Shown: piece by piece, positions 5,780 to 61,814 of the stretch | Position numbering within the stretch: position 1 is the first letter of the stretch | How the letters are laid out: every line of letters starts with the position of its first letter | From: Microbacterium salitolerans | GTDB taxonomy: Bacteria > Actinomycetota > Actinomycetes > Actinomycetales > Microbacteriaceae | Assembly: GCF_019720895.1 (NCBI RefSeq) | Contig: NZ_JAHKSH010000006.1 | Coordinates: forward strand, 1-64,000 | Direction of reading: 5' to 3' | DNA: 64,000 nt | The notes under the pieces: model-generated | The model's database searches: none | What the model was told of the DNA's origin: nothing | The model's input: only the letters and a program-made list of their open reading frames with translations | Made by a program: the position numbers and the translations under genes

Positions 5780-6691
5780 ATGGCCAGCGCCGGATTCAGC
5801 AACCCCTACTTCACTCAGGACCGCGCCCCCGGACAGGGCGGCTATGCGACGCCGCTCACCCCGGGCCAGGCGACGGCATCTCCCCAGGCGGCGCAGGCGC
5901 CGCGCGTCGGCCAGCAGGCCGAGATGGAGGGCATGTACACCGCGCCCTCCGCCGGCACGCCGCAGACCGGCCGCATGACCTACGAGGACACGATCGTCAA
6001 GACGGTCATCATGTTCGCGATCATGCTCGCCGTCAGCGTCGCCGCGTGGTTCTTCACGCTCGGCGGCACGCTGTCGCCGTCGAATGTCGCGTCGGTCGCC
6101 CAGGTCACCCTCCTCCCCGCCATCATCGGCGCCGTCGGCACCCTCGTCATCAGCCTCATCGCGATGTTCAAGCGCGCGCTTCCCGTCGGACTCGCGCTCA
6201 CCTTCGCGGCCGTCGAGGGGCTCTTCGTCGGCGGGATCTCGGCGTACTTCGAGTTCGTGATGGAAGGAATCGTGATCCAGGCGGCGATCGCGTCGGTCGC
6301 CGTCATCGGCACGACCCTCGCGCTCTTCGCCAGCGGCAAGATCCGCGCCTCGGCCAAGATGACGAAGATCGTGATGATCGCGATGATCGGCTACGCCGTC
6401 TTCTCGCTCCTCAACGTCGGCCTCATGATGTTCGGCGTCCTGCCCGAGGGCATGGCCTTCGGCCTCCGCTCCGCGACGATCATGGGCATCCCGATCGGAC
6501 TCATCCTCGGCGTCGTCGTCGTGCTCATGGGCGCATACATGCTCGTCATGGACTTCGATGCCGTGCAGCGCGGCGTGCGCAACGGCGCCCCCGCGAAGCT
6601 CGCCTGGACGGCGGCCTACGGCATCATGGCGACCGTCGTGTTCATCTACATCGAGATCCTCCGCATGATCGCGATCCTGCGCAGCAACTGA
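5780..6691 (+). CDS. Bax inhibitor-1/YccA family membrane protein
   Basis: A 303-residue membrane protein. The first about 70 residues are soluble and rich in Pro, Gln and Ala. Seven hydrophobic segments follow, beginning with TVIMFAIMLAVSVAAWFF. The SxxxYGLMLVF-like blocks and the final TAAYGIMATVVFIYIEILRM fit the BI-1/YccA (TMBIM) family. Members act as pH-gated Ca2+ leak channels in some bacteria; the role here is unknown. ATG at 5780 gives the family N-terminus (MASAGFSNPYF). A GTG at 5768 is in frame and sits just after AGGAG, so a start 4 codons earlier is possible. A strong terminator follows at 6701. Confidence 0.92.
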   Translation: MASAGFSNPYFTQDRAPGQGGYATPLTPGQATASPQAAQAPRVGQQAEMEGMYTAPSAGTPQTGRMTYEDTIVKTVIMFAIMLAVSVAAWFFTLGGTLSPSNVASVAQVTLLPAIIGAVGTLVISLIAMFKRALPVGLALTFAAVEGLFVGGISAYFEFVMEGIVIQAAIASVAVIGTTLALFASGKIRASAKMTKIVMIAMIGYAVFSLLNVGLMMFGVLPEGMAFGLRSATIMGIPIGLILGVVVVLMGAYMLVMDFDAVQRGVRNGAPAKLAWTAAYGIMATVVFIYIEILRMIAILRSN

Positions 6692-6700
6692 CGCGCAGAC

Positions 6701-6748
6701 GACGCGAAGAGGCCCGTCCCGGTTTTCCGGGGCGGGCCTCTTCGCGTC
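6701..6748. terminator. Rho-independent-like hairpin after BI-1 gene
   Basis: A 22-bp stem with one G-U-type mismatch closes around a TTTT loop. The left arm starts GACGCGAAGAGGCCCG at 6701 and the right arm ends at 6748. It lies 9 bp after the BI-1 stop. No long T-tract follows, as is common in high-GC actinobacteria. It separates the BI-1 gene from the DUF4956 operon. Confidence 0.85.
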
Positions 6749-6838
6749 GCGCGAGAACTCAGGTCCGGCGCTTCACCTCGCCATAGAAGTCGCATAGCGG
6801 CGCTCGCTTCACTCGAAGTGAACGAAAGGTGAACACCC

Positions 6839-7429
6839 ATGCCGGATCTCACGATGCTCCTCATCGACCTCGCCGCGATCACGATCCTCACGATCGCCGT
6901 ATACTTCCACCGCCATCGCCGCCGCGACCTCGTCGTCGCGTTCTTCGGGGTGAACATCGGCGTCTTCGCCGTCGCCTACGTCCTCGGCGCATCGGACGTC
7001 GCCGTCGGCCTCGGCCTCGGGCTGTTCGGTGTGCTCTCCATCATCCGCCTGCGCTCGAGCGAGATCTCGCAGCGCGAGGTGGCCTACTATTTCGCCGCGC
7101 TCGCAATCGGACTCATCGCGGGTCTCACGCCGGCCTTCGACGTCGCGTCAACGGCCCTCATCGCCCTCCTCGTCGCGGCGCTCGCGATCGTGGACCACCC
7201 CGCCCTGTTCGCCGCGACCCGGCACCGCACGATGCAGCTCGACGAGGCCATCGTCGACGAAGACGAGCTGCGATCGACGATCGGCGACCGCGTGGGCGGC
7301 GAGGTGCGCTCGCTCCAGGTGCAGCACATCGACTTCGTCAACGACACGACGCTCGTCGACGTGCGCTATCGCGTCCTGCGCGGGCGCGCCGTCCGCACGA
7401 CCGCGCCCCGCGAAGAGGTGGCGGCATGA
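6839..7429 (+). CDS. DUF4956 membrane protein
   Basis: A 196-residue protein of unknown function. Four hydrophobic segments fill residues about 3-115 (LIDLAAITILTIAVYF, VVAFFGVNIGVFAVAYVL, GLGLGLFGVLSIIRLRS, YYFAALAIGLIAGL and following). The soluble C-terminal part is about 70 residues. The segment FGVLSIIRLRSSEISQREVAYYF is the hallmark of DUF4956. It is first in a three-gene operon: its stop overlaps the VTC gene start (ATGA at 7426). DUF4956 and VTC genes are often neighbours in bacteria, sometimes with CotH or Cthe_2159-type genes, suggesting a shared cell-surface function. Confidence 0.92.
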   Translation: MPDLTMLLIDLAAITILTIAVYFHRHRRRDLVVAFFGVNIGVFAVAYVLGASDVAVGLGLGLFGVLSIIRLRSSEISQREVAYYFAALAIGLIAGLTPAFDVASTALIALLVAALAIVDHPALFAATRHRTMQLDEAIVDEDELRSTIGDRVGGEVRSLQVQHIDFVNDTTLVDVRYRVLRGRAVRTTAPREEVAA

Positions 7430-8214
7430 CCGTCCGCGTCGACGACCTCACCCGACGGTTCTCGCCGATCTCGCTCGACGGCCTCGTCACCGAGGCCGAG
7501 CTCCTGACCCGGGTCGACCGCAAGTACCTGCTGCCGGCCGCGCGCCTCGCTCCCGTCATCGCGCAGCTCGACGACGCGACCCGCGTGCTCGAGATCGACG
7601 GCGAGCGCGGATCTCGGTACGGATCCATGTACTTCGACACCCCCGACCTCACGAGCTACCATCTGGCCGCACGGGGCCGGCGCCGCCGCTTCAAGCTGCG
7701 CTCGCGCCATTACGTCGACACGGATGCAGCGTTCCTCGAGATGAAGACCGCGGGCGCCCGCGGCACGACGGTGAAGGAACGCATCGCGCACCCGACGGAT
7801 GCCGTCGAATCGCTGACGGATGAGGGACGCGCGTATGCCGGCGAGGCAATCGCCGCCCTCGGCTTCGATGACGCGCTGGTCGACGCCCTGGCGCCGACAC
7901 TGCACACGGGCTACCGGCGCACGACCCTCCTGCTGCCCGAGGGGACGCGCTCGACCGTCGACACCGAGCTCGAGTGGGCAGATGCCTGGGGCGGACGCAT
8001 GACCCGCCCCGACCTGGTCATCGTCGAGACGAAGTCGTCGTCGCGACCGTCGACGGTCGACCGCCTGCTGTGGCGGGCGGGGATCCGCCCCGCGCGCATC
8101 AGCAAGTTCGCGACGGGGTTGGCCGCGCTGCGGCCCGGTCTGTCCTCCAACAGGTGGAGCCGCGTGCTCCGCACCCACTTCGCCGACGGCGCGCACATCG
8201 CGCGTGCCGCATGA
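7426..8214 (+). CDS. VTC-domain protein (polyphosphate polymerase-like)
   Basis: A 262-residue protein with the VTC/TTM (CYTH-like) tunnel fold. Typical basic and acidic positions are visible: RVDRKYLLP near residue 28, RRFKLRSRHY near 88, FLEMKT near 103, VKERI near 113, TELEWAD near 183 and VIVETKS near 200. In yeast Vtc4 this fold polymerises polyphosphate from ATP. Bacterial stand-alone VTC genes are less well understood. Start ATG 7426 overlaps the DUF4956 stop by 4 bases, and its own stop overlaps the upstream in-frame ATG of the next gene, so the three are translationally coupled. No signal peptide or membrane segment. Confidence 0.92.
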   Translation: MTVRVDDLTRRFSPISLDGLVTEAELLTRVDRKYLLPAARLAPVIAQLDDATRVLEIDGERGSRYGSMYFDTPDLTSYHLAARGRRRRFKLRSRHYVDTDAAFLEMKTAGARGTTVKERIAHPTDAVESLTDEGRAYAGEAIAALGFDDALVDALAPTLHTGYRRTTLLLPEGTRSTVDTELEWADAWGGRMTRPDLVIVETKSSSRPSTVDRLLWRAGIRPARISKFATGLAALRPGLSSNRWSRVLRTHFADGAHIARAA

Positions 8215-8237
8215 CACCCGAGAACAGGAACACGCAG

Positions 8238-9920
8238 ATGACCACGACCCCTCCCCGCCGCCCCCGCTCCCGCTCCCTCGGCCACGTCGCCGCCGGCCTC
8301 GGCCTGACCTTCTCGCTCGGCATCGCCGCGCTGACGGGCTGCTCGGCGATCGCCGAAGCGGCCTCGTCCGAGTCCACGTCGAGCACCGAGGCGGCGACCT
8401 CCACCGAGACGAAGCCCGAGAGCGTGGCCGCCGTGGTCGAGGCGAACGCCGACCAGACCGTCGTGAACGACGACGAATGGTCGGCCGCCGACGCGCAGGC
8501 CATCGCTCTGTCCGGTGAGGATGCCGCGACGGACGCCTCAGGCGTCAGGGCCGATGACGGATCCGTCACGATCACCGAGGCCGGCGTGTATCGCCTCTCG
8601 GGTGACTACGACGGATCCGTCGTCATCGACGCCGACGAGGAGGCGCAGGTCGTGCTCATCCTCGACGGCGTGACCATCGACGCCGACGGCGTGCCGGCGA
8701 TCCAGTCGGTGTCGGCCGACGACGTGGCGATCTTCCTCGAAAGCGATTCCACCAACGCCGTCTCCTCGACGGGGACGTACGACGAGGACGCCGAGGCGAA
8801 CGCCGCGATCTTCGCCGACAACGACCTCACGTTCTCGGGAGGCGGAGCGCTCACCGTCGACGGCGAGGCGAACGACGCCATCACCAGCAAGGACGATCTC
8901 GTCGTGCTGTCGGGCACGATCGACGTCACGGCGACCGATGACGGCCTGCGCGGCAAGGACTCGCTCACCGTGCGCGGCGCGGCGATCACGGTCGACGCCG
9001 GCGGCGACGGCCTCACCTCCGACCAGGACGACGACGAGACGCAGGGATGGGTGCTCATCGAGGGAGGATCCCTCGACATCACGGCCGGCAGCGATGGCCT
9101 CGACGGGTTCACGGACGTCGTGATCACCGACGGCGAGCTCGCGATCGCGTCGGAGGAGGGCATCGAGGCGGGCACCGTCGCGATCGGCGGCGGCACGATC
9201 GACATCGTCGCGTCGGACGACGGGATCAACGGATCGGCGGGGACCGCCGACTCCGCTGCGACGGACACGGCGACGACGGATACCGACGAGACGCCGTCCG
9301 AAGCGGATACGGCTGCCGGATCCTCCGCCGCCGCCCCGGCGGATCCGCCCTCGGGTGAGATGCCCGACGGCGGGTTCCCCGGCGGCGAGACACCCGCGGA
9401 CGGCGAGATGCCAGAGGGCGGCGGCATGCCCGGAGGAGGAGGGATGCAGGACACCGGCGAATGGGTGCTCATCGCCGGCGGCGACATCACGATCGACGCC
9501 GAGGGCGACGGGCTCGACTCGAACGGATCCCTCGAGATCACGGGCGGCACGACCATCGTCGACGGGCCGTCGAACGGCGGAAACGGCGCCCTCGACGCGA
9601 ACGGCGAGATCACGGTGTCGGGCGGCACGCTGCTCGCGCTCGACGCGGGCGGAATGAGCGAGACGCCGTCCGCAGACTCCGCGCAGGCGTGGGTGGCGGC
9701 AACCGCTTCGGGCGACGCCGATGCGACGATCGAGATCGTCGCCGACGACGGCACCGTGCTGTACTCCGGCAAGGCTGAGAAGGCCTTCGGCGCCGTCGTC
9801 TACTCGGGCGAGGACGTCGTCGCCGGCGAGACCTACACGGTCACGGTCGACGGCTCCGAGGCTGTCAGGGCGACGGCGGGCGAGGCCCTCGCAGGCGGTA
9901 TGGGTGGCCCGCAGGGCTGA
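8238..9920 (+). CDS. Lipoprotein with Cthe_2159-type carbohydrate-binding beta-helix domain
   Basis: A 560-residue secreted lipoprotein. The signal sequence ends in lipobox ALTGC with Cys35. The rest is built of repeating Asp/Gly-rich beta strands (ITVDAGGDGL, LDITAGSDGLDGF, IDIVASDDGING, ITIDAEGDGLDSNG), as in the Cthe_2159 carbohydrate-binding family, where aspartates coordinate calcium. An inserted Gly/Pro/Met-rich linker (PDGGFPGGE, EGGGMPGGGG) lies near residues 370-405. ATG 8238 is preferred over ATG 8211 because AGGAA lies 8 bp before it and the lipoprotein signal then has normal length. It is third in the DUF4956-VTC operon, so it may be the surface-exposed part of that system. Confidence 0.87.
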   Translation: MTTTPPRRPRSRSLGHVAAGLGLTFSLGIAALTGCSAIAEAASSESTSSTEAATSTETKPESVAAVVEANADQTVVNDDEWSAADAQAIALSGEDAATDASGVRADDGSVTITEAGVYRLSGDYDGSVVIDADEEAQVVLILDGVTIDADGVPAIQSVSADDVAIFLESDSTNAVSSTGTYDEDAEANAAIFADNDLTFSGGGALTVDGEANDAITSKDDLVVLSGTIDVTATDDGLRGKDSLTVRGAAITVDAGGDGLTSDQDDDETQGWVLIEGGSLDITAGSDGLDGFTDVVITDGELAIASEEGIEAGTVAIGGGTIDIVASDDGINGSAGTADSAATDTATTDTDETPSEADTAAGSSAAAPADPPSGEMPDGGFPGGETPADGEMPEGGGMPGGGGMQDTGEWVLIAGGDITIDAEGDGLDSNGSLEITGGTTIVDGPSNGGNGALDANGEITVSGGTLLALDAGGMSETPSADSAQAWVAATASGDADATIEIVADDGTVLYSGKAEKAFGAVVYSGEDVVAGETYTVTVDGSEAVRATAGEALAGGMGGPQG

Positions 9921-52090: not shown

Positions 52091-52579
52091 ATGGCCGACA
52101 GCAGTTTCGACATCGTCAGTGAGATCGACCGCCAGGAGGCGGACAACGCCCTCAACCAGGCACGCAAGGAGGTCAGTCAGCGCTACGACTTCCGCGGCAC
52201 CGACACCGACGTGTCGTGGTCGGGCGAGCAGATCCTCATCGTCGCGAACAGCAAGGATCACGCGACGGCGGCGCTCGACGTCCTCCAGTCGAAGATGATC
52301 AAGCGCGGGATCTCGCTCAAGAGCCTCGACAGCGGCGACCCGTTCGAAAGCGGCAAGCAGGTCAAGATCGTCACGACCCTGAAAGAGGGCATCGCCCAGG
52401 ACATGGCGAAGAAGATCGGCAAGATCATCCGCGACGAGGGCCCGAAGGGCGTGAAGAGCCAGATCCAGGGCGAGGAGATCCGCGTCAGCTCGAAGAGCCG
52501 CGACGACCTCCAGACCGTGATCGCGCTCCTCAAGGGCAAGGACCTCGACCTCGCGCTGCAGTTCCAGAACTACCGGTAG
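52091..52579 (+). CDS. YajQ-family nucleotide-binding protein; 3' end is the element's attB
   Basis: A 162-residue YajQ protein with the conserved start [34 protein letters not shown]-type block, [14 protein letters not shown] and the C-terminal [20 protein letters not shown]. YajQ proteins bind cyclic di-GMP or other nucleotides and may act as co-regulators. The final six codons and stop lie in the 21-bp repeat that forms attL of the integrated element, so the element supplies an identical 3' end and the gene stays intact. Confidence 0.95.
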
Positions 52580-52581
52580 CG
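52561..52581. repeat. attL core (21-bp direct repeat, left copy)
   Basis: The core contains GTTCCAGAACTACCGGTAG and is identical to 61794-61814. It covers the last codons and stop of yajQ plus 2 bp. Confidence 0.92.
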
Positions 52582-52602
52582 AACGCCCCCGACCTGGGGT
52601 TT

Positions 52603-53700
52603 TCATGTTCCAGTCCGCGCAGAGTCCGCAGAATCGAGGATCTCGCGCGCGAAGTCCGCGGTCGCGGCGCGCGTGCGGTCCTCGGCGGACGGCCAGAGGT
52701 GCGAGTACGTGTCGAGCGTGATCGACGGTTGCGAGTGGCCGAGCGCGCGCTGCACGGTCACGACGTCGCAGCCGGCGGCGATGAGGTTCGACGCGAACGT
52801 GTGTCGGAGCGCGTGCAGCGTGATCTCGTCGGGGAGCTTCGCGGCCGCGCGGATCCGTCGCCACTCTCCCCCGGCCGTGTTCCGGTTGAACATGCGGCCG
52901 AGCGGGTCGACGACGACGAGGTCGTCGCCCTGCCCGCCGTTCTCGGCGAGGTGCGCGGACAGGAGCCGGAGGAGCTCGTCGGGCACGTAGATGGTGCGTT
53001 CTTCGCCGTACTTCGGCGGCACGAGCTTCGCGGTCTTGAGCGTCGAGCCCTGCACCTGCTGTTCGACGCGGATCGTGCGCCGCAGGAAGTCGATATCGCG
53101 CACGCGGAGGCCGGCGGCCTCGCCAAGCCGGAGCCCTGCGAACGCGCAGAGCGCGACATACGGCCGGAAGCCGTCAGCGGCCGCGAGAGCGGCGCGCAGC
53201 TGCTCGGCATCGAGTAGGCGCATCGACGCCTCGGTGCGGCGCTGACGGGGCGCAGAGACCCCTGCGGCAGGGTTCGTGGGGATGCGCTTGTCGGCGACGG
53301 CCGCGCCGAGCGCCATCGACACGTAGTTGAGGCGGGTCTTGATCGTCGACGCCGCGAGGCCGCGCTTCCGCTCGGCCGCGACCCACGATTGCACGTCGCT
53401 CGCGCGAATCGCCTTGATCGGTCGATCGCCCCACGGCACCGACTTGCACGCCGTCTTCGCGGCCTCGTGCGTGCCATCGGTCCACATCTGGCGCCCGCGC
53501 CACATCTCGACCCACTTCGACCAGGTGATGCGGCCTGCGGCGGGATCCGCGTACTGCCCCGTGACGATCGCGGCCGTCTGCTCGTCGAGCCAGCGCTGCG
53601 CGTCGCGCTTCAGCGGGAAGTGGCGCGCGTGTTCCTTGCCCGCGGCGTCGCGGTAGCGGGCGCGCCACGAGCCATTAGGGCGCTGCCGGATGCTCGCCAT
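52603..53700 (-). CDS. Tyrosine-type integrase of the element
   Basis: A 365-residue site-specific recombinase. The N-terminal arm-binding domain (ASIRQRPNGSWRARYRDAAGKEH) and core-binding SAM-like domain (residues about 60-150) precede the catalytic domain. Catalytic residues are Arg in AGLRLGEAAGL, Lys in the LKTAKLVPPK beta hairpin, His-x-x-Arg in LHALRHTFAS, His in LGHSQ and the nucleophile Tyr in LDTYSHLW. All are present, so it should be active. It lies 21 bp from attL, reading toward the core. Its 5' end overlaps the repressor gene by 26 bp. The 3' codons contain one of the arm-type repeats. Confidence 0.95.
   Translation of the reverse strand: MASIRQRPNGSWRARYRDAAGKEHARHFPLKRDAQRWLDEQTAAIVTGQYADPAAGRITWSKWVEMWRGRQMWTDGTHEAAKTACKSVPWGDRPIKAIRASDVQSWVAAERKRGLAASTIKTRLNYVSMALGAAVADKRIPTNPAAGVSAPRQRRTEASMRLLDAEQLRAALAAADGFRPYVALCAFAGLRLGEAAGLRVRDIDFLRRTIRVEQQVQGSTLKTAKLVPPKYGEERTIYVPDELLRLLSAHLAENGGQGDDLVVVDPLGRMFNRNTAGGEWRRIRAAAKLPDEITLHALRHTFASNLIAAGCDVVTVQRALGHSQPSITLDTYSHLWPSAEDRTRAATADFAREILDSADSARTGT
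52613..52633. repeat. Arm-type integrase site, left copy
   Basis: The stretch GTCCGCGCAGAGTCCGCAGA and one more A holds two GTCCGC units. The same 21 bp with one mismatch occurs at 61670-61690, just inside attR. Paired copies on both sides of the core are expected for P and P' arms of a tyrosine-recombinase attP. Confidence 0.6.
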
Positions 53701-54238
53701 TGCCTGTCACCTCGTGCCACGTGGAATTGGCGCTCCAACGCTCGAGCCACGGCCCTGAGAGTCGTTGACTTGGTGTGTCGTCGGCGCCGGCGGATGCCGC
53801 CTCGGGTTCCTCTTGATGCACCTCATCGACAACATCTTTCGCGCCTGGCTCGATCCAGCTCTCACCAAGTCCGGCGGTGCGGTTCGTCTGGTCAGTCGGC
53901 GGAACTGCATCGAGAGCCAAGGCCAACTGAAGCCGCACGTCGTCGTAGACGCGTATCGCCTCCTTCAGTGCGTCGCTCGCCAGGCGCGCCTGGTGACCCC
54001 ACAGCATCGCGACAGACTCGGGCTCAACGGCTGTGAGCTTCCATGTGCCGGTTCCCAGAGCTCTCGCGATTGCTTCGGCCTCAGTGAGCCGTAGTGGGCG
54101 CTCGCCCTTCTCGACGCTCCACACCGTCGCTTGCGACCACTTGAAACCGATCTCACGCATCGCGTCCGCCAGGTCCTTCTGGCTCATCTCCCCACGCATG
54201 CGGGCGAGGTTCTGGCCGATCTGCTTGTCATCGAGCAT
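53675..54238 (-). CDS. XRE-family repressor of the element
   Basis: A 187-residue predicted repressor. Residues about 6-65 form a helix-turn-helix (IGQNLARMRGEMSQKDLADAMREIG, FKWSQATVWSVEKGERPLRLTEAEAIARALG). The rest is a low-complexity, acidic and Pro/Thr-rich region without a peptidase domain, so it is not LexA-cleavable in the lambda-CI manner. ATG 54238 is the first good start. It is divergent from the excisionase-like gene across a 119-bp control region with repeated CTAGT half-sites, and probably maintains quiescence. Induction might need a helper-encoded antirepressor; that is inference. Confidence 0.88.
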   Translation of the reverse strand: MLDDKQIGQNLARMRGEMSQKDLADAMREIGFKWSQATVWSVEKGERPLRLTEAEAIARALGTGTWKLTAVEPESVAMLWGHQARLASDALKEAIRVYDDVRLQLALALDAVPPTDQTNRTAGLGESWIEPGAKDVVDEVHQEEPEAASAGADDTPSQRLSGPWLERWSANSTWHEVTGNGEHPAAP

Positions 54239-54357
54239 GACCGTGACGATACAGCGGGTTCTAGTCAGAGCCAACACGATTCTTTTCTAGTTGCGTGCAA
54301 CCTACATTCATGGTCAACTAGCGTTCGTAGTCATAACCCACTAGGAAAGGCCAACAG
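54239..54357. promoter_or_regulatory. Divergent control region with CTAGT/ACTAG half-sites
   Basis: Four half-sites are seen: CTAGT at 54271 and 54287, ACTAG at 54317 and 54340. CTAGTTG (54287-54293) and CAACTAG (54315-54321) form a perfect inverted repeat with a 21-bp gap. The region is AT-richer than its surroundings and separates repressor and excisionase genes, so these are candidate repressor operators. Confidence 0.6.
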
Positions 54358-54564
54358 ATGTCGACCACAAGCCCCGCACAGCGCGATCGACTGCTGTTCA
54401 TCGACGAGGTCGCCGACCGACTCCGACGTTCGCCAGCGCAGATCCGGTGGATGGTCCACCAGGGCACCGCACCGAAGCACGCGAAGATCGGCGGCCGACT
54501 CGTGTTCCGCGAGTCTGAGGTCGAGGCGTACATCGACGAGGCGTTCGCCAGGGCTACCCGATGA
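54358..54564 (+). CDS. Excisionase-like MerR-type HTH protein
   Basis: A 68-residue protein dominated by an HTH_17/excisionase fold: LFIDEVADRLRRSPAQIRWMVHQG, then PKHAKIGGRLVFRESEVEAYIDEAF. Such proteins bend attachment-site DNA for excision or act as transcription activators. The ATG at 54358 has AGGAAAGG 7 bp upstream. It is first gene of the rightward operon and overlaps the next gene (ATGA). Its place next to the repressor fits an Xis/early regulator. Confidence 0.8.
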   Translation: MSTTSPAQRDRLLFIDEVADRLRRSPAQIRWMVHQGTAPKHAKIGGRLVFRESEVEAYIDEAFARATR

Positions 54565-55139
54565 GCGCGCGTCACCGCGTAGTCGCCGTCCGGCGCGGTC
54601 ATGACGAGGCCGGCCGCGACACGTACGCGGCGCGTTGCGAGACCTGCGGCGCGATCACGTTCGGCGGCTTCCCGACCCGGACTTCGGCGCGCGAAGCGCT
54701 CGCCGAGCACGAAGAAGCCCTCACCGCCGCGGCAACGGCAGATGAGGGCGAAGACCAGGACACCAACGCTCAAGAAGGGGAGCCGATCATGACCATGATC
54801 GCAGAGACCGAGGAAGACCGCGAGGCACGCTACGTCGCGGAGCATCCCGAGATCAGCGCGGCCGTGCCCAGCTGGGCCGATGAGCTCGAGGTCGATCTCG
54901 ACGACCCCGACGACGTCGCATTCATGGGCCGGCGCACGGTCGGCAGCATCGAGATCATCGCTTCCGGCGACCACACCCCGGAGGGCGCAGCGCTCGCGCC
55001 CGACGACGCATTCTCGCTGTGGCTCCCGGCGCACGAGCTCCACGAGAACACAGGGCGCGCTCTCGCCGCGCATGCCCGCCGCATCGCGGTCGACCTCATC
55101 ACCGCCGCGGCACTGCTCGACGAGAAGGCCGCAGCGTGA
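54561..55139 (+). CDS. Hypothetical protein of the element's early operon
   Basis: A 192-residue protein not recognised as a whole. The first about 55 residues hold RCETCGAITFGGFPTRTSAREALAEHE, a CxxC-containing knuckle seen in small actinophage proteins. An in-frame ATG at 54789 begins MTMIAETEEDREARYVAEHPE, and the region after it is acidic (LEVDLDDPDDVAFMG) and ends helical (GRALAAHARRIAVDLITAAALL). It may be two fused modules or contain an internal start. Overlaps of 4 bases at both ends show tight coupling. Confidence 0.65.
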   Translation: MSARHRVVAVRRGHDEAGRDTYAARCETCGAITFGGFPTRTSAREALAEHEEALTAAATADEGEDQDTNAQEGEPIMTMIAETEEDREARYVAEHPEISAAVPSWADELEVDLDDPDDVAFMGRRTVGSIEIIASGDHTPEGAALAPDDAFSLWLPAHELHENTGRALAAHARRIAVDLITAAALLDEKAAA

Positions 55140-55582
55140 GCGGCGGCGCGCGCCCGTGGCCGACGCTCCTCGACCGCGAGCAACACGGATGGCGGATCCA
55201 GGTCATCGCGCCGGAGGATCACCCCACGGCCGTCTACCTCGACCGTGTTGAGTACCCCGCGCCGGCGCTTGCCGAGATGTTCGGCACGCTCGTCCAGAAC
55301 TATGACCGCCGATTCGTGCGCTGCGTCCTGTTCCGAAACGCGACGCTCGAGCACGTCGCGTCGGGGATCCACTGGGTACAGCAGACCGCCGAGGGCGCAG
55401 CCGACGATCTCCCGATCTGGGAGCCGTACCCGCGACCGGACGGCACGCAAGCACGCAGAACACGGGCCGGGTATCGGATCGACGAACTCGCGGCATTCAA
55501 CGAGATCACGCGACACCTGAACATCGACACGACGCGCCACCTCGTGGCCGCCGGCGACGAGAAGCGGGAGGTCAGCGCATGA
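55136..55582 (+). CDS. Hypothetical protein of the element's early operon
   Basis: A 148-residue soluble protein with no motif I can name. It is mixed alpha/beta (GWRIQVIAPEDHPTAVYLDRVEYPAPALAEMFG, FVRCVLFRNATLEHVASGIHWVQQ). GTG 55136 overlaps the preceding stop by 4 bases and the frame continues in step with the operon, which supports it as a real gene. It comes directly before the replication initiator. Confidence 0.6.
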   Translation: MSGGARPWPTLLDREQHGWRIQVIAPEDHPTAVYLDRVEYPAPALAEMFGTLVQNYDRRFVRCVLFRNATLEHVASGIHWVQQTAEGAADDLPIWEPYPRPDGTQARRTRAGYRIDELAAFNEITRHLNIDTTRHLVAAGDEKREVSA

Positions 55583-55601
55583 CGACCGAGAGGGCATGGA
55601 C

Positions 55602-56339
55602 ATGATGGGCGCAGGACTCGCCAAGGCCGCTATCGCGGTCGCTGACGCGCTCGAGTTGCGTGAGCACGCCCCCGCACGCATCTACTTCGCGATGGCGCTG
55701 ACGGCGCTCGACAGAGACGCGCAGCCGACGTTCTACGGGGGTCGAGACGCACTCGTCGCGGCTCTGGCAGCGCGCCGTGACCGTGCCGGCTACGCCGCGG
55801 CCGAACGTGCCGTGCGCACTCTCGTCGGGCGCGGCCTGATCGATGTCGCGGCGAAAGGCGTGCCGGGGAGGCCGACACGGTACCGGATCCTCAATGGCCG
55901 GGGCGCGCCGCTGACTCCGAACACACCACGCTCAGCGTGGGGAGAATCCGAATCACCCCACGCTGAGCAGGGTGTGAATAACTCGGAACACCCCACGCTC
56001 AACGTGACAACACCCCACGCTGAGCGTGCCGAACACCCCACGCTCAACGTGGGGCAGAGGAATAGGGAGGAGAAGGAGGAGAGTCAGTCCTCTACAGAAC
56101 CTCACGACCGCGCGCGCGACGTCCGAAGATTCGACCGCTTCGACCTCACACGATTCAGGGCCGAGTCTCCCGACTTGCGCATGCTGAGCGACGAGACGCT
56201 GCGAAGGGTCGCGAACGAGACGCTCGGCCGAGCGCGCGGCGAGGTCCGAGACGAGACGGCCTACGTCCTCCGCGCGGCGAAGGATCCCGAGTGGATCTCG
56301 CACGCGATGAATCTCGAGTGGGATCGAGCCGTCGCATGA
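55602..56339 (+). CDS. Winged-helix replication initiator-like protein with internal iterons
   Basis: A 245-residue protein. Residues about 1-100 form a winged helix typical of plasmid and phage replication initiators: ELREHAPARIYFAMALTALDRDAQPTFYGGRDALVAAL, then AERAVRTLVGRGLIDVAAKGVPGRPTRYRIL. The middle (residues about 105-155) is encoded by five iteron-like DNA repeats and is probably a linker. The C-terminus (LRMLSDETLRRVANETLGRARGEVRDETAYVLRAAKDPEWI) is helical. GAGAGGG 7 bp before ATG 55602 favours it over 55596 or 55605. It probably binds its own coding sequence as origin. Confidence 0.75.
   Translation: MMGAGLAKAAIAVADALELREHAPARIYFAMALTALDRDAQPTFYGGRDALVAALAARRDRAGYAAAERAVRTLVGRGLIDVAAKGVPGRPTRYRILNGRGAPLTPNTPRSAWGESESPHAEQGVNNSEHPTLNVTTPHAERAEHPTLNVGQRNREEKEESQSSTEPHDRARDVRRFDRFDLTRFRAESPDLRMLSDETLRRVANETLGRARGEVRDETAYVLRAAKDPEWISHAMNLEWDRAVA
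55922..56054. repeat. Five iteron-like repeats inside the initiator gene
   Basis: The units match CACCCCACGCTCAACGTG with variants at 55922-55939, 55954-55968 (short), 55989-56006, 56011-56028 and 56034-56054. The first contains a perfect palindrome CCACGCT-C-AGCGTGG. Start-to-start spacing is 32, 35, 22 and 23 bp. Such iterons within an initiator gene mark candidate replication origins. Confidence 0.8.
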
Positions 56340-56587
56340 ACGCGTCGGAGGCATACGCCGACCTCGGCGGCGGGATCCCCCGCGAGGACACGACCGCGCG
56401 GGGAGTCCGTCGCGCGGACACCCTCACGCCGCCCCGCACGCCTCAGACGAGCGCACGCGGCCGTCTGGCGCACGTTCACCGCTTCGATGAACAGTCGGGC
56501 TGGTGCGACTGCGGAACGCGCGACACGGGCGAGCTCGCGGTCGGCTCGCCCGCATGGGCCGCAGCCGGACGGAAGGCCACACGATGA
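56336..56587 (+). CDS. Small hypothetical, actinophage-type (HRFDxxxGWCxCG motif)
   Basis: An 83-residue protein. The C-terminal part LAHVHRFDEQSGWCDCGTRDTGE is a pattern common in short actinobacteriophage proteins; the His and Cys-x-Cys may bind a metal. The N-terminal half is low complexity. ATG 56336 overlaps the initiator stop, and its own stop overlaps the WhiB start, so it is in the coupled operon. Function unknown. Confidence 0.7.
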   Translation: MNASEAYADLGGGIPREDTTARGVRRADTLTPPRTPQTSARGRLAHVHRFDEQSGWCDCGTRDTGELAVGSPAWAAAGRKATR

Positions 56588-56910
56588 GCGTTCTCCCGCC
56601 GGCGCGGATCCGGGATCGACTCGGCGAGGTGCACGCCGACCACGTCGAGTCGATCCCGCCCTCGCGCGCCGCGACCCGCGAACACCAGGCGCTGCAGCGC
56701 GTCCTCGACCAGCACGCCCCGGCGTGCCAGGGCGACGACCGGTTCACGGCCGACGCGCACACCCTCGCCCGTGGCGACGTCGCCGCGCTGCGCGCCATCT
56801 GCGGCACGTGCCCGGCGCTCGCCGAGTGCCGCGCCTATGCGGCCGCGTCGCGCCCCGCGGCGGGCGTGTGGGCCGGGACGTCGTACCCGAGGAAGGAAGC
56901 TCCCCAGTGA
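56584..56910 (+). CDS. WhiB-family iron-sulfur regulator
   Basis: A 108-residue WhiB-like protein. The four cluster cysteines are Cys48 (PACQGDDRF), Cys73 and Cys76 (ICGTCPA) and Cys82 (AECRAYA), in the CxnCx2Cx5C pattern. The GVWAG turn follows at 94-98 and a short basic tail ends the protein. WhiB proteins carry a 4Fe-4S cluster and bind the primary sigma factor. Phage-borne copies are known to alter host transcription. Here it sits in the element's operon with ATGA and GTGA overlaps. Confidence 0.9.
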   Translation: MSVLPPARIRDRLGEVHADHVESIPPSRAATREHQALQRVLDQHAPACQGDDRFTADAHTLARGDVAALRAICGTCPALAECRAYAAASRPAAGVWAGTSYPRKEAPQ

Positions 56911-57623
56911 CATCACGCGGATGCATTCGCGGCTGCGCCAGGCGCGGCGTGCACTTCGCCACCTGCCCCGCGTACGGCGCGGACGACCCCGACGGCACGT
57001 GCACCGGGTGCGCTCCCGTCGACGCCCGCGACGGCGCCCTCGTCTGCCACCGCTGCTACGGCAAACTGCGCCGCCGCCTCGAGACCGCGCCCGAGATCGC
57101 CGCGCACCTGCGACGCCTCGCCCGCACCGGCGGGAGCGCCAAGCGCTACGACCGCGAGTCCCACGGCCGCATGCCGCGCCGCATGGCGCCCGTCGACCCC
57201 GACGTGCTCGACGCGCTGCGCGACGTGCTCGACACGCTCAACGCGACCGCCACCGCCGATGCCACGCCCGACGAGGTGCACGAGATCGCGCTCGGCGCGG
57301 CCGGCGCGGTCCTCGCCGACTACGACGCCATCGTCAACGACGCCGGCGCGTTCGCGACCTGGTGGCAAGTCACGATGCCCACGCAGCTCCCCGACTGGCC
57401 GGAGTTCTGGACCATCGCCCGAGCGTTCGCGCGATGGCCGCTCGAGGACCGCAGCGGATGGGCCGCGCTCCCGTGCCCCGGCTGCGACCTGCGCATGCTC
57501 CGACGCATCCCGCCCGCCCGCGCTGGCGTGCCCGAGTGGTACGTGTGCAGCTCGTGCGAGTGGGAACGCAACGACACCGACGACGACGGACTGTGGGCGC
57601 TCGTGATCGCCGACGCCGCCTGA
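56907..57623 (+). CDS. Hypothetical protein with N- and C-terminal zinc-ribbon-like cysteines
   Basis: A 238-residue protein of unknown function. The N-terminus has seven cysteines (residues 6, 10, 20, 32, 35, 47, 50; for example CTGC and CHRCYGKL) and the C-terminus has PCPGCDLRM and CSSCEWE, each a likely zinc ribbon. The middle is helical with an Asp-rich LDALRDVLDTLNATATAD stretch. GTG 56907 overlaps the WhiB stop. Similar Cys-rich proteins occur in actinophages; nucleic-acid binding is plausible. Confidence 0.7.
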   Translation: MTSRGCIRGCARRGVHFATCPAYGADDPDGTCTGCAPVDARDGALVCHRCYGKLRRRLETAPEIAAHLRRLARTGGSAKRYDRESHGRMPRRMAPVDPDVLDALRDVLDTLNATATADATPDEVHEIALGAAGAVLADYDAIVNDAGAFATWWQVTMPTQLPDWPEFWTIARAFARWPLEDRSGWAALPCPGCDLRMLRRIPPARAGVPEWYVCSSCEWERNDTDDDGLWALVIADAA

Positions 57624-57638
57624 CAGGAAGGAACCGAC

Positions 57639-57893
57639 ATGACGACGACCGATGTGAAGAGCCTCACGGGGCAGCTCGTCCTCGCGATCGACGCGAAGGA
57701 CGAGCCGGAAGCGCGGCATGTCCTCGCGCACTTCGACGATGACCCGACGGCGACGTTCGCCCTGATCATGGCGCTCGTGGGCACGGCGACCGAGTGCATG
57801 AAGACCATCGCGGGCGAACGCTGGCGCGAGGCGCTGCAGCTCGCCCTGCTCGACGGATCCCTCGACGAGAAGACAACCGATGCCGCGGAGTGA
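57639..57893 (+). CDS. Hypothetical small helical protein
   Basis: An 84-residue acidic protein (LTGQLVLAIDAKDEPEARHVLAHFDDDPTATF-type start, LALLDGSLDEKTTDAAE end) without known motifs. AGGAAGG lies 8 bp before ATG 57639. The position in the operon and the clear ribosome binding site support it. Confidence 0.65.
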   Translation: MTTTDVKSLTGQLVLAIDAKDEPEARHVLAHFDDDPTATFALIMALVGTATECMKTIAGERWREALQLALLDGSLDEKTTDAAE

Positions 57894-58233
57894 CAACCCG
57901 TTCGACAAGCCCCTGCCCCCGCACCCGTTCGACTCGCGCACGACGTCGCCCGCGGAGCGCCTGCGCGGCCCGGACGGATTCCTCGCCGCCAGCGACGAGG
58001 TCGCCTATCTCGCCTCGACGCGAGTTTCGGCAGAACGCGACGACGGCCCGGTAGAATCGAGACAGCAAGTTGACGGCGCTGTAGTCGCCCCGCACGAACC
58101 GGCCAAGGTCTCGCACCGAGGAGCCCATGCGGACGGGGTCGGCAGGAATCAGTCGCAGAGTCAAGACCGAGGAGCCCGCCGGGGCCAAGGTCGAGGAACT
58201 CTTTCGGACACGAGCGAACACAGACGAGGGTGA
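57880..58233 (+). CDS. Doubtful hypothetical ORF
   Basis: A 117-residue frame starting 14 bp inside the previous gene. The first about 50 residues (RSDNPFDKPLPPHPFDSRTTSPAERLRG) look like a coding operon member. The remainder (from about residue 55) is Gln/Arg-rich and runs through a region with short repeats, so it may be read-through of a frame that is no longer selected or a truncated gene. Kept as a weak call. Confidence 0.35.
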   Translation: MPRSDNPFDKPLPPHPFDSRTTSPAERLRGPDGFLAASDEVAYLASTRVSAERDDGPVESRQQVDGAVVAPHEPAKVSHRGAHADGVGRNQSQSQDRGARRGQGRGTLSDTSEHRRG

Positions 58234-58359
58234 ACCCCTCTCCGGTCAGTGCGTCAGCGCACGCGGAGAGCACATAGCCCGACGACCTGTGATCCACCGC
58301 CATTGGCGCGCATCCGCCCATTCTCGGGCCGCGCCACAGATCCAGAAAGCAGAACCATC
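58040..58359 (+). other. Leader region of the capsid gene with short repeats
   Basis: The about 300 bp before the capsid start hold a possible -10 (TAGAAT, 58052-58057), the 12-bp repeat ACCGAGGAGCCC at 58115 and 58166, and GGCCAAGGTC at 58101 and 58183. No convincing gene fits beyond the doubtful frame ending at 58233. It may be a long 5' leader or a packaging or regulatory site. Confidence 0.4.
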
Positions 58360-59565
58360 ATGGAATCCAACGAGACCATGCATCGCGAACTGAAGGCAGC
58401 TCGCGCGATCGCCGAGAAGGCCGAGAGCGAAAACCGAGACCTCACGCCCGACGAAGTCGAGCAGGCCACAACCCACCTCAAGGCGTACGAATCGGCGAAG
58501 ACCAGCCTCACGGCGACGCCGGGACAGAACTTCATCCGCGAAGACAGCGAGACCGGCCGAGCTCTGAAGAGCATCGGCATCAACCCCTGGTCGAACCCGG
58601 ACGACGCAATGTCGCCGCGCGCCAAGGGCGCCAAGCGCACGAAGCGCTCGGCAATGTGGTCCAAGGGAGTCGCCGACCGCATCGACTCGATGTCGCAGAA
58701 GATCGTCGGCGACACGGTCGGCATGAAGGCGCTCGTCTCCGGATCGATCTCGGTCCCGAGCGCGCTCGACCAGGGGCAGCCCGTCACGATCGACACCGTG
58801 CAGACGACCGTGCTCGACCTCATCGCTCGCGGCGAGCCCGACGGCAACCGGCAGGGCAACGAGTTCCAGTACGTCCGCCAGACCGCACGCGACAGCCAGG
58901 CCGGCGCGGTCGCCGACCTCGACCCCAAGCCGACGTCGACGTACACGTTCGGCGAGGTCAAGGATCACTTCCGCGTCTACGCGAACAAGACCGAGGATCT
59001 GCCCTACCGCTACCTCTCGGATCACGCGACGCTGACCGACGTCATCCGCGAACAGCTCGCCGAGGACACGCTCCTCGCGATCGAGGAAGACGCGCTGTCG
59101 GGCGCCGGTACCGGCGAGGAGCTGACCGGCATCCTCAACACGTCCGGAATCCAGGCGCAGCCGTTCGACACCGACCGGCTCACGACGCTCAGCAACGCGA
59201 AGTACAAGCTCCTCGGCCAGGAACTCGCCTTCGACGGCTGGGTACTGAACCCGACCGACCTCCAGGCGCTCGAGCTGCTCCGCGAGGGCGGCACCACGGG
59301 TCCGTTCCTGTTCAAGTCCCGCGCCGAGATCGCCGCGTTCCTCGGCGCACCCATCGCCCTCTCGCAGGGGATCCCGGCCGGAACGGCGCTCGTCGGCAAC
59401 TTCGAACAGGGCGCCGACCTCATCCCGAAGGGCGACGACGAGCTCGTGGTCGACACGAAGAAGCGCACCGACAACAACACGTTCCTGCTGATGTACGAGG
59501 GCAGCTACGGCTTCCGCGTCAAGAAGCCCGTCAGCTTCGTCGAGGTCACTCTCACGGGAGCGTAA
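58360..59565 (+). CDS. HK97-type phage major capsid protein
   Basis: A 401-residue HK97-fold capsid protein. Residues about 1-50 (MHRELKAARAIAEKAESENRDLTPDEVEQATTHLKAYE-type) are a helical delta/scaffold domain with the common ENRDLTPDE motif. The shell domain follows (SGSISVPSALDQG, FQYVRQTARDSQAGAVADLDPKP, ATLTDVIREQLAEDTLLAIEEDALSGAG, DGWVLNPTDLQALELL and the end YEGSYGFRVKKPVSFVEVTL). ATG 58360 gives the domain in full. It is the only structural gene in the element. Protease and portal must come from elsewhere if capsids form. A 17-bp hairpin follows. Confidence 0.92.
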   Translation: MESNETMHRELKAARAIAEKAESENRDLTPDEVEQATTHLKAYESAKTSLTATPGQNFIREDSETGRALKSIGINPWSNPDDAMSPRAKGAKRTKRSAMWSKGVADRIDSMSQKIVGDTVGMKALVSGSISVPSALDQGQPVTIDTVQTTVLDLIARGEPDGNRQGNEFQYVRQTARDSQAGAVADLDPKPTSTYTFGEVKDHFRVYANKTEDLPYRYLSDHATLTDVIREQLAEDTLLAIEEDALSGAGTGEELTGILNTSGIQAQPFDTDRLTTLSNAKYKLLGQELAFDGWVLNPTDLQALELLREGGTTGPFLFKSRAEIAAFLGAPIALSQGIPAGTALVGNFEQGADLIPKGDDELVVDTKKRTDNNTFLLMYEGSYGFRVKKPVSFVEVTLTGA

Positions 59566-59632
59566 CCAGACCACCGTGCCTCTTCTTGAGCGGGGCACGG
59601 CGGGACGCGTGAATCAGGGAGCACGCGCCACA

Positions 59633-59680
59633 GAGGCGTCACCTGCGAGTCTTCTTCTCCTGGCTCGCAGGTGACGCCTC
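59633..59680. terminator. 17-bp perfect inverted repeat overlapping convergent gene end
   Basis: GAGGCGTCACCTGCGAG (59633-59649) pairs perfectly with 59664-59680 around a 14-base pyrimidine-rich loop. It lies 68 bp after the capsid stop, and the minus-strand gene ending at 59639 uses it as its last codons. It probably ends transcription both ways. Confidence 0.85.
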
Positions 59681-60136
59681 GCCCTCTGCGTGAGACATCC
59701 GGGTCAACTCGACGTCGATCTTCCTGAACACGCGCTTCGACCACTTCCTGCCGCGCGCCCATGAATCGAGTTCGTCGTAGACCGCGTCGGCGAGCCCGAA
59801 GTACTCCTCAGGCATTGGCTTCTGCTCGAGCTCATACCTCGCGCGCATCGAGTAGATCTTCGCCAGCACGTTCCGCAACCGGCGCTCAACCTTACGGAAC
59901 GAGCCACGGTGTACCACGTCCACCGCATACGGCACACGCGGAACATTGGGAGGACGATCCAATTTGCCGTCGAGACTCTCGATCACCTTCTCGTCGACGA
60001 TCTTCTCGACCCACTCGGCGCGCTCACCCAGACGAGCGCGGCGCTCGTTCCACGCTTGAAGCCCGATCGTGGCACCGAACGACAACAGACCACCAATGAC
60101 GGCGCCCACGAGAGCAGCGATGACTTCCTCCGACAT
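59639..60136 (-). CDS. Hypothetical single-span membrane protein
   Basis: A 165-residue protein. Residues about 5-27 (VIAALVGAVIGGLLSFGATIGLQAW) form a membrane anchor, followed by a basic and helical cytoplasmic domain (RARLGERAEWVEKIVDEKVIESL, RKVERRLRNVLAKIYSMRARYELEQ). There is no recognised motif. It faces the capsid gene and lies apart from the operon as an independent cargo gene. Superinfection exclusion by a membrane protein is conceivable but unsupported. Confidence 0.7.
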   Translation of the reverse strand: MSEEVIAALVGAVIGGLLSFGATIGLQAWNERRARLGERAEWVEKIVDEKVIESLDGKLDRPPNVPRVPYAVDVVHRGSFRKVERRLRNVLAKIYSMRARYELEQKPMPEEYFGLADAVYDELDSWARGRKWSKRVFRKIDVELTRMSHAEGEASPASQEKKTRR

Positions 60137-60520
60137 GCGGCAACCGTAGCCGGTGCAGCACCCGTCCTACGGGTAGGGGCGTTCGGATTGCTGGCGCCGT
60201 ACCCCAGAGCAGTGCGCCGGTAGTGATCTGTCCCCCTCCGGACACCAATGTCCCACCTTCGATGTCCCACCTGTCCCACGTCCTGTGGTCGGGGATCCGC
60301 ACCGTCGCGCGGATCCCCGACCACACGGCGTGACGCGACGCGTGACGAAGTGGGACAGGTGGGACAGAGTGGGGCAAGGCGAGGCAAGCAACTGCACGAC
60401 GTGCTTCATTGCCCGGTGGACAACACCTCGCTCAGCTCCTAGAGTGACAACCAGGGTTACACTTAATCTGCAAGCGCGATGTCTACTGTCGCTGCAATGT
60501 CTCACTAGAACGAGGAACTC
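60137..60520. repeat. Gene-free stretch with nested inverted repeats
   Basis: A 17-bp perfect inverted repeat (TGTGGTCGGGGATCCGC at 60284-60300, partner 60309-60325) is nested inside an outer 15-bp perfect one (TCCCACCTGTCCCAC at 60265-60279, partner 60350-60364). Further TGTCCCAC copies lie at 60250 and GTGGGACA copies near 60358-60368. No gene is seen in the 384 bp. It could be an origin, packaging signal or strong terminator. Confidence 0.8.
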
Positions 60521-60955
60521 ATGCCAACGCAAACGTTGTCGCGTGCTGACCAAGTGGTCATCCAACAGCAGGCCTCTGGAGTCGTGGAGGGCGTCCGAGA
60601 CCACCAGGGCGTCGATGTCGAGGTGGTCGTCGACGGGCACCGCATCCGCGCCGGCCACGATCTGTCCCAGTTCATCGTGAGCATAATCGATCAGCTCTCA
60701 GATGGGGCGACAATCGGAACGGTCTCACTCCCCAAGGAGTTGACGACCACCACGGCCGCGCAGCAGCTCGGAATCTCCCGTCCAACCCTCATGAAGCTTG
60801 TAAAGAGCGGCGAGCTCCCCTCGCACAGGGTCGGCACTCACACCCGCATCTTGACGAGCGACCTCTACGCATACCGCGACGCCAAGCTCACCGCCAGCCG
60901 ACAGGCGTTCGAAGAGTTGCAGCAACTCGAGATCGACCACGGCATCACCGACTGA
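60521..60955 (+). CDS. Excisionase-type HTH protein, putative antitoxin
   Basis: A 144-residue protein. The C-terminal half is an excisionase/HTH_17 fold: TTTTAAQQLGISRPTLMKLVKSGELPSHRVGTHTRILTSDL-type region (residues about 75-120). The N-terminal half (IQQQASGVVEGVRDHQGVDVEVVVDG) is a separate mixed domain. It is followed 7 bp later by a PIN-domain gene, the usual order of an antitoxin-toxin pair. The operon's promoter lies in the 60380-60520 gap. Antitoxin function is inferred from this pairing. Confidence 0.78.
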   Translation: MPTQTLSRADQVVIQQQASGVVEGVRDHQGVDVEVVVDGHRIRAGHDLSQFIVSIIDQLSDGATIGTVSLPKELTTTTAAQQLGISRPTLMKLVKSGELPSHRVGTHTRILTSDLYAYRDAKLTASRQAFEELQQLEIDHGITD

Positions 60956-60962
60956 GGCCGCT

Positions 60963-61598
60963 GTGACATTCCCAGTTGTGGTCGTCGACGCGAACGTCTT
61001 GTTCTCGCGCACGCTACGTTCGTGGTTCTTCAACCTTGCAACGCAGGGATCCCCACCATCGTTCTCACTGGTCTCAACGGAGGACATCAACGCCGAGGCA
61101 ATCGCCCGCATCAGGGATCGATACCCCGACCTCGATGGTGGGGTGATCACGAAGATCGCTAGGCAGCTGCGCGAGGTGTGCACGATTCAGGAGGACTTTG
61201 ATGGGAGCCTGCGGTTCCCGGGAGACGACGTAAACGACTCTCATGTGCACTCAGCAGCAGTCGAGGCTCGGGCTGGCTACCTGGTGACGGCAGACACCGG
61301 CTTCCACACGATCGAGGACGCCGACGCTCTCCCGTACGAGGTATACACCCCCGATGATTTCCTGATGCTCGCCAACGAACAGTCCCGAGAGCGAGTTCTG
61401 ATGGCGACCCGGGAGAATCTGAAGTTCTACCAGAAAGCCCTGAACAGTTCCGCTGACACGAAACCACTCGCCGACGCCCTGAAGGCTTCAGGCTGCCCAA
61501 AATTTGCCGAGGTCGTGACAGAGAACCTGATCCTCCTTAGTGGAGCCTCGAGGCGCGAAGCGCGAGACAAGATGCTGCAGATCGAGGGAGTGCGGTAG
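60963..61598 (+). CDS. PIN-domain ribonuclease, putative toxin
   Basis: A 211-residue protein with a PIN fold at residues about 5-120. Acidic residues are Asp9 in VVVDANVLFS, Glu40/Glu45, Asp92 in NDSHVHSAA and Asp111 in LVTADTGF, forming the metal-binding site. A helical C-terminal extension of about 80 residues follows (KFYQKALNSSADTKPLADALKASG). GTG 60963 starts 7 bp after the HTH gene. PIN toxins cleave tRNA or other RNA; in this pairing it may be an addiction or anti-phage module of the element. It is the last gene before attR. Confidence 0.85.
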   Translation: MTFPVVVVDANVLFSRTLRSWFFNLATQGSPPSFSLVSTEDINAEAIARIRDRYPDLDGGVITKIARQLREVCTIQEDFDGSLRFPGDDVNDSHVHSAAVEARAGYLVTADTGFHTIEDADALPYEVYTPDDFLMLANEQSRERVLMATRENLKFYQKALNSSADTKPLADALKASGCPKFAEVVTENLILLSGASRREARDKMLQIEGVR

Positions 61599-61669
61599 CC
61601 GACAGGAAACACCCCGGAGGGCGGCCGCAGGTGACCAGTGCTCCACCCCGCCTCCCGGGGCAGATACGG

Positions 61670-61690
61670 GTCCGCGCTGAGTCCGCAGAA
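61670..61690. repeat. Arm-type integrase site, right copy
   Basis: It matches 52613-52633 at 20 of 21 positions (GTCCGCGCTGAGTCCGCAGA and one more A). It lies 103 bp inside attR in the same orientation as the left copy. The 61599-61793 stretch around it holds no convincing gene. Confidence 0.6.
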
Positions 61691-61793
61691 GTGTCAACTC
61701 TGCCCATCGCCAGACGGGCACACCTGGAGGATTAATGCCCGATCAGACGGTAAACAACCACAAGTCGCAACAGCCCCCGGTTCTCGGGCATCT

Positions 61794-61814
61794 GTTCCAG
61801 AACTACCGGTAGCG
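61794..61814. repeat. attR core (21-bp direct repeat, right copy)
   Basis: Identical to 52561-52581. It carries an orphan copy of the last yajQ codons and stop, as expected from integration into that gene end. Confidence 0.92.

Follow-up and report, generated by a model that had tools for sequence, protein, structure and literature searches.

Described satellites with capsid genes

The nearest described elements to the island analysed here, compared by description, are the capsid-forming PICIs (cfPICIs) and the mycobacterial 'integrase + MCP' (major capsid protein) candidate PICIs, accounts of which are available in part in the open-access literature, as they are for the Streptomyces phage satellites MulchRoom and MiniFlayer. 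Among the matches listed in that literature there was no paper on an MCP-only group, on satellites with a protease-MCP fusion, or on islands combining an MCP with TerS (with or without a tape measure), the original papers on cfPICIs, VEIMEs and tycheposons falling outside this scope. As the available descriptions have it (PMC10690885; PMC11389934), cfPICIs are, like this island, small integrated satellites encoding their own MCP, but they combine it with a protease, a portal, connectors, both terminase subunits and HNH, whereas the island has the MCP only. With an MCP of its own, and no portal, protease or terminase subunits of its own, it thus falls outside the cfPICI gene set.

The mycobacterial candidates, including phiRv1/phiRv2-like elements, are defined by an integrase and an MCP in a report on their prevalence and capsid diversity (PMC10654092), which, in its available text, does not separate MCP-only elements and includes some that also carry terminase or scaffold genes. 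Having an integrase and an MCP in one element, the island belongs under this definition. The phiRv elements carry a separate protease gene. Classical PICIs/SaPIs and P4 share with the island an integrase, divergent regulators and a replication gene, but they lack an MCP and have scaffold-type proteins that remodel the helper capsid. Some SaPIs have TerS (PMC10690885, in the text available), as do some of the island's relatives. The PICI features present in the island are the att site, the integrase and the divergent repressor/AlpA-like regulators; the TerS that marks pac-type PICIs was not found, there being no PF23931 match in the host genome.

MulchRoom and MiniFlayer resemble the island in being actinobacterial and encoding their own MCP; their capsids are small (~43 nm by EM). 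Unlike the island they encode, in the description available, both terminase subunits, a portal and a scaffold (PMC10690885). The Streptomyces plasmid pWTY27 has an MCP of the same group as that of the island, with no portal, protease or TerL detected, but unlike the island it is a 14.3-kb conjugative plasmid with TraA/TraB; its authors, in the available part of their report, regarded the capsid-like gene as unexpected (PMC3583192).

Anatomy of the island and its capsid protein

The window, i.e., the whole stretch of Microbacterium salitolerans DNA that was analysed (64,000 nucleotides), contains an integrated element with the following features:

52561..61814, no strand: whole island, 9,233 bp between the left ends of the att repeats (21-bp direct repeat)
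52603..53700, minus strand: tyrosine integrase (PF00589, E=5.9e-25; 77% identity to the M. marinilacus island integrase, same site)
53675..54241, minus strand: Xre-type repressor-like regulator (PF13560, E=4.7e-7, over cut-off)
54358..54564, plus strand: AlpA/excisionase-like HTH protein, divergent from the Xre-type regulator (PF12728, E=5.9e-11; phrog_66, E=4.4e-9)
55596..56339, plus strand: probable replication initiator (phrog_678, O-like, E=0.025 only; position as in the replication genes of relatives)
56584..56910, plus strand: WhiB-like protein (PF02467, E=1.2e-8, over cut-off)
57639..57893, plus strand: small ORF10, 5' of the MCP gene (relatives in 5 loci)
57880..58233, plus strand: small ORF11, directly 5' of the MCP leader (related ORFs in 6 loci, in each case 5' of the MCP)
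58360..59565, plus strand: HK97-fold MCP, 401 aa (profiles, predicted structure, fold search)
60199..60376, no strand: conserved block, non-coding, in which TGTCCCAC/GTGGGACA repeats surround a long hairpin (blastn to L024; DNA fold z=-7.1)
60521..61598, plus strand: HTH gene and PIN-domain gene (PF12728, E=7.6e-12; PF13470, E=2.8e-5, and NF046100, E=4.1e-10, both below cut-off)

The copies of the 21-bp att repeat lie at 52561-52581, within the 3' end of yajQ, and at 61794-61814, with a spacing of 9,233 bp; in 30 resamples from an order-3 Markov model, no flanking repeat was longer than 17 bp. The integrase and Xre-type genes occupy the minus strand, and the AlpA-like gene, small ORFs, the O-like gene, the WhiB-like gene, further small ORFs, the MCP gene and the HTH/PIN genes run divergently from them. 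Among the island ORFs (Pfam on 15/15, PHROGs on 10/15) the MCP is the sole head, packaging or tail family. The HTH/PIN genes, judged by their sequences, probably constitute a toxin-antitoxin pair. A WhiB-related ORF occurs in 10 of the 42 loci first labelled lone, viz., with an MCP from an element without a detected portal or large terminase (one of the 42, G989b, proved complete, and two, G1154 and a second place in G1204, were set aside as uncertain). ORF11 and its equivalents display an LRD..GFL.A.DEVAWL motif in six loci. Palindromic repeats (CCCCACGCT..AGCGTGGGG; repeats D2 and I3) are found at 55917-56054 inside the possible replication gene; lambda O-type genes, with origins inside the gene, offer an analogy.

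The MCP leader (58070-58359) is long and conserved, recurring at 3750-4039 of L094 and at the same place in L055, L056 and L015, and several AAGRYCGAKGARC motifs follow one another in it; it opens with a possible -10 box. A structured leader RNA 5' of the MCP gene is not supported, the folds of two members being ordinary (z -1.24 and 0.14) and the covariation term of the consensus fold unfavourable (+1.68). The non-coding block on the other side of the MCP gene has counterparts in L024 (11471-11695), L056 (about 8740-8900) and L065 (about 8210-8450) with a CCGGYAGTGAT-type core, and our guess is that it is a candidate origin or packaging site. Clustered repeats of this type were found in 4/42 non-complete loci versus 0/8 complete ones (G000, G883, G772 and G602, all of them negative for TerS), four loci being too few to interpret. 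A packaging site shared with phages was rejected, the single phage match of 60180-60400 being weak (29 bp, E=0.7); the exact 25-base core had no match in IMG/VR, and with up to two mismatches it was found in one of 299 family genomes, which is the window's own.

The capsid ORF runs from an ATG at 58360 to the end of its stop codon at 59565 (401 aa) and gives the single PF05065 match among the 21 contigs (3.46 Mb) of the host genome. It was originally predicted to be an HK97 capsid gene, and both PF05065 (E=5e-18, 65.9 bits; cut-off 24.2) and TIGR01554 (E=1.8e-16, 60.3 bits; cut-off 27.5) bear this out over their curated cut-offs. In an AlphaFold2 model built on 15 sequences (mean pLDDT 70, pTM 0.56), helices at residues 2-23 and 30-51 (block pLDDT 78-87) and a low-confidence stretch (residues 53-146) precede the HK97 core; the predicted structure is thus an HK97 fold with an N-terminal delta-like helical hairpin, and the delta domain of the original prediction is supported at the level of structure prediction. 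Ranks 1-34 in a Foldseek search of the PDB with this model are all phage capsids, HK97 itself accounting for most of them (TM by target 0.70-0.80 for HK97 structures; 0.63-0.80 for these ranks overall).

The fold is shared with encapsulins, and the original prediction had also raised encapsulin-like shells, in which case the protein would form a compartment with a cellular or element role apart from DNA packaging. The NCBIfam profile encap_f3 does hit the MCP with 18.5 bits, and encapsulins enter the Foldseek ranking at rank 35; however, the cut-off of that profile is 180 bits, the only cargo-like match is ORF10, EncB-like at 13.1 bits against 90, all better-ranked structures are phage capsids, a delta-like hairpin is predicted, and the MCPs of relatives are paired with TerS, protease or tape-measure genes. 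With the structure comparison against encapsulins and phage capsids run, the profile scores and the fold ranking lead us to reject such shells, to which we attach hardly any likelihood.

The proposed absence of terminase, portal and protease was confirmed: the host genome has no match to the portal PF04860, the protease PF04586, TerL PF03354 or TerS PF23931; local portal, protease and TerL profiles, derived from complete prophages found here and one Streptomyces phage-plasmid, have no match in the window; and the 15 island ORFs contain no terminase family by Pfam. As PF03354 is insensitive here (4/37), the absence of TerL rests mainly on the local profiles. The window copy lacks a recognised TerS but may have a divergent one. 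No resident helper was found in the host genome by its portal, protease or TerL; four of the relatives' genomes (G772, G834, G861, G127) have a portal away from the MCP locus, as does G616 with a match below cut-off, and these are possible signs of resident helpers.

A group of related elements and their virion genes

Matches to the window MCP were recovered from 10 of 299 genomes of the family (E<=1e-10), 2 of 297 of the order (E<=1e-20) and 26 of 346 of the genus (E<=1e-10), the window's own genome being counted in each, and a 26-row MCP profile matched 9 of 326 genomes of the phylum (E<=1e-20). The same gene order was to be sought elsewhere in actinobacteria, and it is found in M. marinilacus, whose island occupies the same yajQ site with the shared order int-xre-alpA-whiB-ORF9-ORF10-MCP (77% identity in the integrase, 64% in the MCP). 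Complete prophages, with a portal and a protease beside the MCP, were recognized in 7 of 37 genomes or records (G836, G717, G880, G813, G822, G884, G035), and their MCPs are at most 37% identical to that of the window.

In a 65-row tree, a 100/98 branch has 29 lone MCPs on one side and no complete phage or prophage among them; six lone-labelled rows fall on the other side (G076, G582, G760, G989a, and G1130 and G961, the last two on short or edge contigs), and the lone label needs three changes. A 49-row tree likewise has one branch (91/86) parting 28 lone from 21 complete MCPs, a split recovered in 94% of 200 bootstrap trees and with none of 500 label shuffles as low. The trees were rooted at the midpoint, and, since sampling tracked similarity to the window MCP, the claim holds for the sampled rows. 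Partial MCPs (G607, G850, G882) and G113, where a protease adjoins the MCP on a 3.3-kb contig, were left out before the trees, and G1052, G929 and the second place of G1204 were not added to the later one. The 29 come from Microbacterium and other Microbacteriaceae, from a further family of the same order (G398) and another within the class (G1194, G1204), and from pWTY27, a Rhodococcus plasmid and two contigs in IMG/VR. For 25 of them, Pfam searches for a portal and for a separate protease next to the MCP were negative; for G1194, G1204 and the IMG/VR pair the absence of both comes from local profiles only.

This distribution bears on the possibility that relatives have the missing head and tail genes at the same place, making the window copy a deletion derivative: the complete prophages have the distant MCPs noted above, none lies among the 29, and the M. 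marinilacus island at the same site together with the 65-row tree disfavours this reading. We likewise consider it quite improbable that the island is a decayed prophage in which one structural gene was kept by chance. Its phage ancestry is clear, and the pN/pS of its MCP to the nearest relatives is only moderately low (0.63 to G883, the nearest, 0.56 to G692 and 0.69 to G772; 0.47-0.69 over wide pairs generally), but the same anatomy recurs at the yajQ site and in many genomes, the MCPs group apart from those of complete phages, element sizes cluster at 9 kb, and the MCP frame is open in 24/24 aligned rows from the window and the genomes of relatives. The wide pairs say little because they are diverged and GC-biased, and their pN/pS is weak evidence of constraint on the MCP; the close pairs G834a-b (0.13) and G582-G760 (0.03, outside the 29) indicate purifying selection in those lineages only.

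Several relatives encode further virion proteins. TerS adjoins the MCP in 9 of the 29, with PF23931 over cut-off in G060, G086, G766, G778, G861, both G834 islands and the Rhodococcus plasmid, and a PF05119 small terminase just upstream of the MCP in G398. PF23931 had no match in 14 control genomes, and a homologous gene lies directly 5' of TerL in the three complete prophages checked. Some relatives probably have a packaging specificity of their own, as judged from their TerS genes. In two of the 29, an S78 prohead protease and the MCP form one open frame with both domains over cut-off (G1204, 572 aa; L152, 564 aa). Loci with the fusion (L106 8645-10363, L152 3955-5649, and L153) have no detected portal or TerL. 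A Sipho_Gp37-type gene is present as well in L152, and G883 encodes an M23 peptidase. G060 combines MCP, TerS and a tape-measure gene (L017 8750-12742) within a 9.6-kb tRNA-bounded element; the 678-aa tape-measure protein (phrog_991, E=3.5e-82; PF10145 over cut-off) is homologous to those of complete prophages found here. A second integrase-like gene is present at L017 6343-7263, and in G834 a single genome holds a pair of related MCP+TerS islands at separate sites (L063, L064). Given these additional genes, the islands are not all strictly lone: the description of a lone capsid gene holds for the window copy and fails for several relatives with one or two more virion genes. The feature common to the group is an MCP without a detected portal or large terminase.

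The same genes bear on whether the island MCP might act without forming a shell by itself, mixing into the helper capsid and shrinking or poisoning it as a sizing or interference protein. Remodelling of capsids by satellite proteins is an established strategy in the available text of PMC10945586 and PMC12409344, and the window copy lacks both protease and TerS. However, the MCPs are full-length, with a predicted delta-like hairpin and HK97 core, and the fusion of a protease to the MCP in two relatives suggests maturation of their own shell. Moreover, with at most 37% identity to the prophage MCPs found here, mixed lattices look unlikely, and we regard this explanation as unlikely overall.

Element sizes and a proposed satellite with its own shell

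Direct repeats of 20 bp or more flank 13 of 26 scanned loci, and in 11 of these 13 they overlap a tRNA gene; the search covered spacings of 5-16 kb in loci of up to 19.5 kb. These 13, the window, G883 (included for its 16-bp repeat at yajQ) and, from IMG/VR, the circular contig L094 give 16 bounded elements with a mean of 9,031 bp (SD 501, range 7,964-9,656), the 12 of the 26 loci with no boundary found being outside this mean. For G834b the 27-bp repeat was used, a 20-bp repeat at 15.0 kb also being present, and the size of G1194 may be inflated by what reads in sequence as a transposase-like ORF. Integrases and replication genes vary among the bounded elements. L094 is 9,090 bp with an exact 127-bp terminal repeat, giving a circle of 8,963 bp, which may be cellular rather than packaged DNA. 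Its 6171-7996 region encodes an HTH-M78 (RmrA-like) protein together with a DUF4411 protein, which may act as a defence or toxin-antitoxin pair. The group also has members that are not 9 kb, namely pWTY27 (14.3 kb) and a Rhodococcus plasmid unit of ~6.8 kb; the 13.6-kb plasmid (L013, NZ_CP096036.1) appears to be a near-dimer of this unit, which carries integrase, TerS and MCP genes; of the two copies of the MCP gene, one is short. A published model, in its available text, has T=3 tailed capsids holding 8.1-17.1 kb (mean 11.8 kb), with 8.9 kb corresponding to T~2.49 (PMC7762592).

We consider it likely that the island is a phage satellite from a lineage that brings its own shell protein. The original prediction of a satellite building capsids with its own shell has comparative support in the MCP group, the ~9-kb sizes, the circle, and the TerS, protease and tape measure of relatives, and from these we infer the particle and the parts taken from a helper. 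Upon infection by a helper phage, the island would excise and replicate, and its MCP would assemble a small shell, probably T=3 or near to it as judged from element length, for which the helper would supply the portal, protease, large terminase, connectors and tail. Relatives with TerS, a fused protease or a tape measure would themselves provide more of the parts on which specificity or size depends. Of these satellites the window copy is the most reduced and, in the absence of a recognised TerS, would need that of the helper through a mimicked packaging signal.

More tentatively, and with doubt slightly outweighing confidence, we propose an old, dedicated lineage of capsid-substituting satellites spread over several actinobacterial families, which would re-encode only those virion parts that determine size or specificity, namely the shell always and, in some, TerS, a fused protease or a tape measure; their size of ~9 kb would then reflect T=3 or similarly small HK97 shells, an architecture reported missing in tailed phages. 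If this is true, the elements would bridge classical and capsid-forming PICIs in graded steps (MCP; MCP+TerS; protease-MCP; MCP+TerS+tape measure), and they would explain the stray genes for a 'phage major capsid protein' on small plasmids of actinobacteria, pWTY27 among them. With genomes of ~9 kb that encode an HK97 MCP, the question of the missing T=3 capsids of tailed phages becomes open to direct test, and one supplied shell protein would, if the proposal is true, suffice for a satellite to capture a phage.
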